This document shows positions 11,071-14,604 of a DNA stretch of 32,299 nucleotides, in pieces. The stretch covers positions 1 through 32,299 of the forward strand of contig PFQF01000039.1 in the NCBI GenBank assembly GCA_002793435.1, written 5' to 3'. Made by a program: the position numbers and the translations under genes. Source of the stretch: Candidatus Berkelbacteria bacterium CG_4_10_14_0_2_um_filter_35_9_33_12 (GTDB taxonomy: Bacteria; Patescibacteriota; UBA1384; GWA2-35-9). The notes under the pieces were generated by a model. That model searched no databases. It was not told where the DNA came from and worked only from the letters and a program-made list of their open reading frames with translations. Numbering within the stretch: position 1 is the first letter of the stretch; every line of letters starts with the position of its first letter.

Positions 11071-11411
11071 GGGGTCATTTAGATTCGACTGGAAGAATGA
11101 TGACTATAGTTCAAGTAGAGGATGTTTGTTACCTCTTAAATAATCAAACACAGTTGATAATTGCCAACTTATATAATAAGGTTAAAACCGCTTTTAGTGG
11201 TCTAAAACCAGCATTAGCTTTTGCTTAAATTTTAAGCAAGCGGGTTATTGAAAGTGTTAATCGTCCAATTTCAAATAACCCTCATATTGACGATTTATAG
11301 CTAATAAGGTAGCTTTAGTAATTAGCTGAAAAAACGAAAGTATCACATAAACTTGTCAACCTATTTTCAAAAGCTTTCAGGACGGGGGTTCAAATCCCCC
11401 TGACTCCACCA
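11071..11411 (+). ncRNA. ssrA: tmRNA
   Basis: The 5' end GGGGTCATTTAGATTCGACTGG and the 3' end GGTTCAAATCC...TGACTCCACCA form the tRNA-like domain (acceptor GGGGTCA/TGACTCC). The tag frame resumes at GCC 11163 and ends at TAA 11226-11228. It encodes A-N-L-Y-N-K-V-K-T-A, then F-S-G-L-K-P, then A-L-A-F-A: 21 residues with a hydrophobic tail of the type recognised by ClpXP-like proteases. A hairpin (GCTTAA / TTAAGC) covers the tag stop. Its partner SmpB is encoded at 12385-12807 on the other strand. Confidence 0.96.
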
Positions 11412-11499: not shown

Positions 11500-11528
11500 T
11501 TGACAAAATGTAAAGTTTACTTTACAAT
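11500..11528 (+). promoter_or_regulatory. Promoter with embedded palindromic operator for the HTH-Hsp20 gene
   Basis: TTGACA (11500-11505) and TACAAT (11523-11528) are spaced by 17 bases. Between them, and overlapping the -10, lies the inverted repeat TGTAAAG-TTTA-CTTTACA (11509-11526). The ATG at 11535 is six bases after the -10, so the transcript should begin at or near the start codon. The layout fits autorepression by the encoded HTH domain (inference). Confidence 0.7.
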
Positions 11529-11534
11529 TATAGT

Positions 11535-12233
11535 ATGGAAATAGAAATTTATTGTCAAAACCTACGTGATTTTAGAAAAAATTGTAAACTTTCACAAGAA
11601 AAATTAGCTGATATCTTAGGAGTTTCAAGACAGACTATATTTTCTCTAGAAACCGGAAAATCAATTCCGTCTTTAGATCTAGCTCATAAAATATCTAGTC
11701 TATTTGATACTGCTATTGATCAATTGTTTTTTAATCAGACAAAAGATACTGAGGTCGACAGTAATCAATATAAATTAATTGGAGATAGTATGGAAAGAGA
11801 ATTAATGCCTCTTTCACCTTTTCATGGGTTAGGAGATCTTCATCGTGAAATCGATCGATTTTTTAATGAATCTTTCACCGTTAGTCGTGGGTCAAGTCAG
11901 ATATTGCCAGCTTTAAATGTGTCTGAAAATGAAAATAATTACTCTATCGAATTGGCAATTCCTGGATACAATAATGATGATATTGATATTGAGGTTTATG
12001 AAGATTACTTAACAATTAAAGGTGAGAGAAAAGTTAAGGATGTCGAAAAAGAAAAGGGTTATGTAAGAAGAGAATTTGCGCACAATCAATTTGAAAGAAG
12101 TGTTTCATTCCTCCAAAAAATTGATAGTGAAAACACACAAGCAAAATTGGAAAGTGGAATTCTTGAAATAATAGCTCCAAAAGTAACTCCAGTAAAGCCA
12201 AAAGTTAAAACTCTTAAACCAATTAAAAAATAA
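11535..12233 (+). CDS. XRE-type HTH fused to an Hsp20/alpha-crystallin domain
   Basis: In this 232-residue protein, residues about 8-65 form an XRE/Cro HTH (NLRDFRKNCKLSQEKLA, then GVSRQTIFSLETGKSIPSL). A linker follows (about 66-105), then a small heat-shock protein domain (about 108-215). The Hsp20 part starts with a DLHREIDRFFNE-like segment. It includes LPALNVSENENNYSIELAIPG, TIKGERK and RREF...FERSVSFLQKI, and SGILEIIAPK marks the last conserved strand, followed by a Lys/Pro tail. Hsp20 proteins hold unfolding clients without ATP; the HTH should bind DNA. The combination suggests a repressor that senses unfolded protein. A palindrome lies inside its own promoter. It sits between ssrA and smpB. 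Confidence 0.85.
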   Translation: MEIEIYCQNLRDFRKNCKLSQEKLADILGVSRQTIFSLETGKSIPSLDLAHKISSLFDTAIDQLFFNQTKDTEVDSNQYKLIGDSMERELMPLSPFHGLGDLHREIDRFFNESFTVSRGSSQILPALNVSENENNYSIELAIPGYNNDDIDIEVYEDYLTIKGERKVKDVEKEKGYVRREFAHNQFERSVSFLQKIDSENTQAKLESGILEIIAPKVTPVKPKVKTLKPIKK

Positions 12234-12885: not shown

Positions 12886-14604
12886 ATGCAAAATATAAAT
12901 ATTGAAAAAATAAGACATTCATTAGCTCATATTTTAGCTGAAAGTGTTATAGATCTTTATCCAGAAGTTGAAGTTGCTATCGGTCCTGTTGTAGAAAATG
13001 GTTTTTATTATGATATTGATTTTAAAAACGAAAATATAAGTGTTGAAGATTTACAAAAAATTGAAACAAAAATGGTTGAAATTATCCAAAAAAAAAGAAA
13101 GTTTATTAAAAAACGGATTAGCCAGGGTGAAGCAAAAAAAATATTTTCAAAAAATAGATATAAATTAGAGTTAATCAAAGAAATCGAAGAAAAAAAATTA
13201 ACAATTTATCGTAGTGAAGGAGGAAATTTTATTGATCTATGCAAAGGTCCGCATATTGCGGACACAGACGAAATCGATGTTAAATCTTTTAAACTAACAA
13301 AATTAGCTGGAGCGTATTGGCGGGGGAGTGAAAATAATAAAATGTTAACTCGAATTTATGGTGTAGCCTTTGAAACTCCCGATGAATTAAAAATATATCT
13401 TGAAAATCAAGAAAAATTGTCTGGGTTGGACCATAAAACAATTGGGCAACAAATGGATCTTTTCTTTTTTGACCCAACTGCTCCCGGTATGGCATATTGG
13501 ACTGATAAGGGATTGAAAATTATTAATCAACTAATTGAATATTGGAGGAATACCCATGAAGCACTTGGTTATAAAGAATATCGCACACCATTGATAAATA
13601 AAAAAGAACTTTATGTAAAATCAGGACATTGGGATCATTACAATCAACATATGTTTATAGCAAATACTAAAGAAAAAGAAATTTATGGGTTAAAACCGAT
13701 GAATTGTCCCAATGCAATGATTGTTTACAAACATAAAATTAGAAGTTACAAAGATTTACCATTAAAAATATCGGATACTGACACATTACATCGATTAGAA
13801 AAATCAGGTACATTAAATGGCTTATTAAGAGTTAGAGAATTTAGTCAAGACGATGCGCATATATTTATTAGTTGTGATAATATAGAAAGTCAATATCTAG
13901 AATTGATTGGTCTAGTTGAAAAATTTTATAAATTGTTTGATATAGATTATTCATTTAGATTAGGAACTCGACCTGATAAATTTATAGGTAATAAAGAAGA
14001 TTGGAAAAAATCCGAGAATATTTTAGTTAAAGTATTAAAAAAATCAGGTAAAAATTATGATATTTTAGTTGGCGATGGAGCTTTTTATGGACCTAAAATT
14101 GATATTTTAATGAATGATAACTATGGACGAAGTTGACAAACCGGTACATTACAGCTAGATTTTCAAATTCCAAAAAACTTTGATCTTAAATATACTGACA
14201 AAGATGGTTTAGAAAAAACACCGGTCGTTATTCATCGAGTTATTTATGGGTCATTAGAAAGATTTATTGGTATATTGTTAGAACATACTAAGGGTGAATT
14301 ACCGATCTGGATTTCACCGGTGCAAATACGCCTTTTACCGATCTCTGAAAAATTCATCAATGAAACAGAAGTAATATTGAGTCAATTGAAAGAAAATAAT
14401 ATTCGAGCAGAAATTGATAATAGAAATTTAACACTTTCAAAAAAAATAAAATTTTCACAAAATGAAAAAATTCCGTATATGGCAGTTATCGGTAGAAGAG
14501 AGATTGATAGTTTAACGATGACAGTCAGAAAATATAATGAAAAAGAGTTAAAAAGTGTTTCTATTAATGATTTTGTAAAAATAATTAAAAAAGCGACTCC
14601 ATAA
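12886..14604 (+). CDS. thrS: Threonyl-tRNA synthetase with an in-frame TGA at a conserved Trp
   Basis: The frame would encode 572 residues if TGA 14134-14136 (codon 417) were read through. It lacks the N-terminal TGS domain and begins at the editing domain (HSLAHILAES, later CKGPH). The catalytic core has GLKPMNCPN (zinc Cys), the motif 2 region SGTLNGLLRVREFSQDDAHIF (zinc His), and GPKIDI. Next comes G-R-S-TGA-Q-T-G-T-L-Q-L-D-F where other ThrRS have W-Q-C/T-G-T-x-Q-L-D-F. After the TGA the frame continues with VIHRVIYGSLERFIGILLE (third zinc His, motif 3) and the anticodon-binding domain. Stopping at the TGA would remove essential parts. Other Trp codons in the gene are TGG. It is divergent from smpB. 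Confidence 0.9.

Follow-up and report, generated by a model that had tools for sequence, protein, structure and literature searches.

The HTH-Hsp20 gene and its surroundings

The window, by which we mean the whole stretch of 32,299 nucleotides that was analysed, holds a gene whose product joins an XRE-type DNA-binding domain to a small heat-shock protein (sHSP) domain (Table 1). An earlier note on this DNA had read both domains in one protein, and Pfam finds both far above their cut-offs, with 53.3 bits against 23 for HTH_3 and 61.8 bits against 20.8 for HSP20, which places the first half among XRE/HTH_3 regulator domains and the second among sHSP domains. The HTH half has the small XRE repressors CylR2, SinR and RstR as sequence relatives, the second half has bacterial and plant sHSPs, and a Foldseek search with the second domain leads to solved small heat-shock proteins. 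The AlphaFold2 model consists of two confident domains with a disordered linker between them and an arm helix at residues 101-113; because its pTM is 0.43, the placement of the HTH relative to the Hsp20 domain is not predicted. Only HTH_3-type models match the DNA-binding half in Pfam, with no MerR-type HTH, and neither the HrcA domain (PF01628) nor the CtsR domain (PF05848) is among the Pfam matches of the protein. A reading as a type II antitoxin of the HipB/Y4mF kind was rejected, since the Y4mF model scores well under its cut-off and no toxin gene adjoins, the neighbours being ssrA, tRNA-Val and smpB.

Table 1. Position of the HTH-Hsp20 gene, its control elements and its parts in the window
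Feature	Position	Strand	Remark
ssrA (tmRNA)	11071-11411		upstream of the fusion gene
-35 element TTGACA of the fusion promoter	11500-11505	+	kept in most of 30 orthologues
Operator, perfect palindrome TGTAAAG-TTTA-CTTTACA	11509-11526	.	same site at dnaK and dnaJ of the genome
-10 element TACAAT	11523-11528	+	overlaps the right arm of the operator
HTH-Hsp20 fusion gene	11535-12233	+	single unbroken frame, 232 aa
XRE-type HTH domain	11562-11723 (residues 10-63)	+	Pfam HTH_3, E 2.8e-14; five helices
Disordered linker	11739-11828 (residues 69-98)	+	pLDDT <50
Internal Shine-Dalgarno GGAG	11781-11784	+	shared by orthologues, with varying codon phase
Predicted free Hsp20, 147 aa, from internal ATG (Met86)	11790-12233	+	predicted
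Hsp20/alpha-crystallin domain	11922-12212 (residues 130-226)	+	Pfam HSP20, E 7.1e-17; sHSP fold

The gene does lie between ssrA and smpB, as the earlier note had stated, with smpB on the minus strand and tRNA-Val(GAC) also between the two, but the arrangement is one of partly conserved synteny and gives no sign of a functional link. A tie to trans-translation is unsupported: of 30 class loci, 6 have the tmRNA near the fusion and about a dozen have tRNA-Val there, with no sign of a shared operon. The predicted tmRNA tag peptides of the class are long, at 21-25 aa in the window and at the loci L007, L014, L018 and L022, the tag of the window being ANLYNKVKTAFSGLKPALAFA.

The class to which the genome (590 kb in 46 contigs) belongs was sampled with 55 genomes, and most of the names on record for these relatives are Candidatus Berkelbacteria, besides one 'WS2' bin and some Patescibacteria. 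An HTH-Hsp20 fusion was found in 41 of the 55, full-length in 33 and as a shorter HTH plus alpha-crystallin fusion of about 190-202 aa in 8; two more genomes have a degenerate alpha-crystallin domain, one copy is cut by a contig end, and none was found in 11. The short variants have lost the arm while keeping the HTH, the alpha-crystallin domain and usually the operator, so the regulatory part can persist alone. In L130 (G023) and L131 (G006) the Hsp20 half is truncated or degenerate (142 and 151 aa), and both genomes still have operator sites. No full-length fusion was found outside the class among 192 genomes drawn from the phylum, where matches cover the Hsp20 part only, nor was a full-length match found on plasmids or phages. 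Beyond the class, matches at E<1e-36 could be taken for fusions; the six that were read proved to be hsp20 genes standing on their own, mostly close to hrcA, grpE or dnaK and several in the order hrcA-grpE-hsp20-dnaK.

Operator, regulon and the absence of HrcA

The fusion promoter matches consensus at 11 of 12 positions with a spacer of 17, and the perfect 7-bp inverted repeat that had been noticed between -35 and -10 is present there, overlapping the -10 element as well. The start codon follows 7 nt past the -10 element, so the mRNA, and with it the full-length start, is probably leaderless. The palindrome is well conserved near orthologues, a point on which the first reading of the locus had been made to depend: it stands upstream of the fusion in all 30 aligned orthologues, exactly in 24 and with one mismatch in 6 (consensus TTGACAAAATGTAAAGTnTnCTTTACATT), and the gap of 8 nt between palindrome and start seen in the window recurs in 8 of the 30. 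When 140-nt upstream stretches were shuffled, a copy with two mismatches or fewer arose in 12 of 9000 trials; therefore, the operator in the orthologous promoters is not due to chance. The fusion protein presumably binds this dyad, and the position of the operator over sigma70-type elements points to a role in repression.

Exact operator sites number 125 in the 55 class genomes, against 1 for a control pattern, the same motif read backwards. The genome of the window has the motif at other promoters too, where the earlier note had proposed to look for it, its two other exact sites standing before dnaK (G000:C41) and dnaJ (G000:C12). At dnaJ a TTTACA lies within the right arm, spaced from a TATAAT as a -35 element would be, and thus the operator overlaps the promoter there too. 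Degenerate operators with two mismatches occurred in this genome at control level and were dropped. A groES gene was not found in this genome, a MAG about 95% complete.

We read 59 further operator sites in 23 genomes, and 47 of them precede genes for chaperones or proteases of protein quality control, namely groES (14), dnaK (12), clpP (8), dnaJ (6), clpB (3), grpE (2), a clpC-type gene (1) and ftsH (1); this tally is made up of 45 assigned by motif and two groES starts (L140 and L180) that the motif missed and reading added, and representative downstream genes were confirmed by Pfam. The other 12 sites precede an ABC-transporter ATPase in four cases, a metallophosphoesterase in three and a contig-cut fusion copy in one, and four are unassigned. 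Neither the ATPase (L147, L164, L169 and L175) nor the metallophosphoesterase (L158, L167 and L171) is a usual heat-shock gene. Among the 30 groES genes of the class, 19 are accompanied by a site of 0-2 mismatches no farther than 200 nt away and 11 by none, a point against the explanation preferred here. The view that the fusion regulates its own gene alone must be given up, because the operator also fronts dnaK, groES, dnaJ, clpB, clpP, grpE and other genes across the class.

Operator sites and fusion also go together across genomes. Exact sites are present in 39 of 41 fusion-bearing genomes and in 5 of 11 without a fusion (Fisher p 5e-4, or 2e-5 with the variant described next, for genomes that are related and hence not independent draws). 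In the genus g13 (G013 and G025) the fusion's own operator reads TGTCAAG-N4-CTTTACA, and G013 shows the same change at its dnaK site, G025 at its groES site; counting this variant, all 41 fusion-bearing genomes have sites. Such shared change suggests that one protein reads all of the operators. Four of the five genomes that have sites and no fusion found are incomplete MAGs. One, G001, fits an assembly gap, because neither the tmRNA stretch nor the fusion stretch was found there. However, G017, a single contig 95% complete, keeps an operator at clpP and no fusion was found in it, which counts against the explanation that we prefer.

HrcA (PF01628) matched none of the 55 class genomes, while control genomes matched as expected, and the CIRCE core pattern occurs once in all 55. 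The repressor was found in 161 of the 192 phylum-sample genomes, none of them class members, which corresponds to 161 of about 178 outside the class. The simplest reading of HrcA being absent and CIRCE nearly so is that the class exchanged this system for the HTH-Hsp20 protein, and it is most likely that the fusion serves as the group's global heat-shock repressor in place of HrcA. Five genomes (G004, G007, G009, G021 and G029) have neither HrcA, nor fusion, nor an exact operator site.

A probable internal start in the linker

The linker of the window protein carries the signal GGAG-atagt-ATG at 11781-11792, and the linkers of almost all orthologues contain a Shine-Dalgarno and ATG that leave 141-161 aa, the length of a normal sHSP with its arm. 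The mean anti-Shine-Dalgarno duplex energy at the internal start of the orthologues is -10.7 kcal/mol, against -6.5 after synonymous recoding over six residues, with a mild selection bias in that, of the ATGs that leave 139-162 aa, the best one was taken for the test. Other in-frame ATGs reach -2.3 and the upstream starts -1.4 kcal/mol. The Shine-Dalgarno is spelled through differing residues and codon phases (KGG, KE-V/A/T, EE and GD), suggesting selection at the nucleotide level. In the window itself the internal signal is moderate, at -6.4 kcal/mol, yet stronger than at most window genes, and the upstream start has none (+2.8); taken alone, the window's signal is not significant in the synonymous-recoding test (0.32). 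A recognisable Shine-Dalgarno is found at few window genes, and many starts look leaderless or free of one.

From these sequence features, the gene probably yields a free Hsp20 as well as the fusion. The earlier note had described a one-protein switch for proteotoxic stress, and the stress role stands; that a single protein makes up the switch is probably wrong, since the conserved internal ribosome-binding site and ATG should also give free Hsp20.

A proposed heat-shock repressor and its alternatives

The HTH domain is related by sequence to small XRE repressors of the CylR2, SinR and RstR type, but those relatives have no Hsp20 domain, and we know of no heat-shock regulon under their control. 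HrcA with CIRCE offers a parallel in function, as the fusion, too, probably represses its own gene and works through inverted repeats at the promoters of dnaK and groES, and other Patescibacteria keep hrcA, often in the order hrcA-grpE-hsp20-dnaK. The fusion differs in having no HrcA domain and in having its presumed sensor chaperone covalently attached. To our knowledge, the chaperones that modulate the known heat-shock repressors of bacteria are separate proteins. The operators differ too, CIRCE being TTAGCACTC-N9-GAGTGCTAA (PMC7464140) and that of the fusion instead TGTAAAG-N4-CTTTACA. With HspR and HAIR the fusion would share a chaperone-linked control of dnaK and clpB and autoregulation, whereas HspR is of the MerR type and reads CTTGAGT-N7-ACTCAAG (PMC7464140) and the fusion's HTH is of the XRE type. 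Among systems studied by experiment, the one closest in logic is IbpA of E. coli, an sHSP that senses aggregation, restrains heat-shock expression, its own included, and represses its own translation and that of sigma32 until aggregation-prone clients recruit it (PMC10474464). IbpA, however, uses its alpha-crystallin domain to act on the 5' UTRs of mRNAs, and the fusion has a DNA-binding domain apart from its alpha-crystallin domain and has its operators in DNA; binding of its own 5' UTR in the manner of IbpA is unlikely, because the mRNA in the window probably has no leader. The claim that no system of this form had been described agrees with our search of 5.4 million open papers (subscription papers and bioRxiv lay outside it), which returned no description of an HTH-Hsp20 regulator or of CPR heat-shock control, and a survey of sHSP monomer architectures (PMC2850924) mentions no HTH-Hsp20 regulator. 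The fusion is a real and conserved heat-shock regulator architecture, undescribed as far as the open literature goes, of the autoregulated-repressor kind and not a member of the HrcA, HspR or CtsR families.

We consider it likely that the protein is a client-sensing global heat-shock repressor with a free Hsp20 nested in its gene, and that it has replaced HrcA and CIRCE. Its XRE domain would bind TGTAAAG-N4-CTTTACA at its own promoter and at those of dnaK, groES(L), dnaJ, clpB, clpP, grpE and similar genes, where the bound protein would block RNA polymerase. The Hsp20 domain would be the stress sensor, in that misfolded proteins would pull this half into client complexes or alter its oligomeric state, upon which the HTH pair would leave the DNA and the regulon would be induced. 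The same mRNA, through the internal ribosome-binding site in the linker, would also give free Hsp20, which would add to the chaperone capacity and return the sensor to repression through competition for clients and perhaps through mixed assembly too. The sequences themselves show the fusion, the conserved operator, the regulon, the lack of HrcA and the nested start signal; binding of the operator by this protein, repression, synthesis of the short form, release driven by clients or heat and feedback by free Hsp20 are inferred. Client-driven release from DNA is the leading mechanism and a plausible one. On balance we lean towards a new class of regulator, confined to one CPR class, in which a sensor chaperone is joined to a DNA-binding domain, nested translation gives both sensor-repressor and free chaperone, and control of DnaK, GroE and Clp has passed to it from HrcA. 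Sensor and repressor would then share one polypeptide, unlike in known repressors, and a whole class would apparently have swapped its global heat-shock repressor while keeping the target genes. How these uncultured CPR bacteria control their heat-shock genes thus becomes a concrete hypothesis, a compact sensor of protein misfolding is on offer, and the titration model can be tested directly with a single purified protein, its 18-bp operator and the free-chaperone isoform.

The least unlikely of the alternatives keeps the same repressor and regulon and makes the Hsp20 half a direct thermosensor, with temperature shifting its oligomeric state and hence the pairing of the HTH domains. Known sHSPs do shift their oligomeric state with temperature, and the domains and operator suit a thermosensor as well as they suit client titration. 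We also counted in its favour that C. jejuni HrcA is reported to be an intrinsic thermosensor (PMC8533110), but a conserved internal start that would give free Hsp20 slightly better suits a competition circuit. That start could itself be a fossil of the gene fusion, with the full-length protein alone being made. Free Hsp20 would match ordinary sHSPs in size and arm, as if a complete hsp20 had once joined an HTH gene, and the window's own Shine-Dalgarno is of moderate strength; we nevertheless judge a fossil rather unlikely, as the signal persists through differing codon phases and residues in orthologues that share 31-47% identity with the window protein, and it exceeds what synonymous recoding gives and, by a wide margin, the signal of the upstream start.

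It is improbable that the Hsp20 half or free Hsp20 acts as a co-repressor required for DNA binding, in which case recruitment to clients would lower repression and the fusion itself would not leave the DNA on clients. Chaperones are known as co-repressors from HrcA with GroE and from HspR, which is helped by DnaK, and the proposal fits this logic; free Hsp20 could also pair with the fused form. On the other side, eight class genomes have a fusion without arm and internal start, and because most of these keep the operator, free Hsp20 from the fusion gene is not always needed. We give a slightly smaller chance still to a different XRE protein as the binder, with the fusion gene merely one of its targets. 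Other small XRE proteins exist in class genomes (the window's genome has one weak match), and the site kept by G017 would agree with such a binder, yet the operator is always present in the fusion's own promoter, the sites track the fusion across genomes, and the short variants that lack the Hsp20 arm retain the HTH and, in most cases, the operator. An assembly join or frameshift that makes two genes look like one, against which the earlier note had cautioned, can practically be dismissed, since unbroken fusions occur in many species and families, in independent assemblies and in some cases on single large contigs.

Elsewhere in the window, the threonyl-tRNA synthetase frame at 12886-14604 contains a single in-frame TGA at 14134-14136 and is otherwise complete to 14604 if read through. 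The codon falls where the enzyme presumably has a Trp as a rule (GR-x-W-QTGT), and it may be due to a sequencing error, a mutation or recoding.
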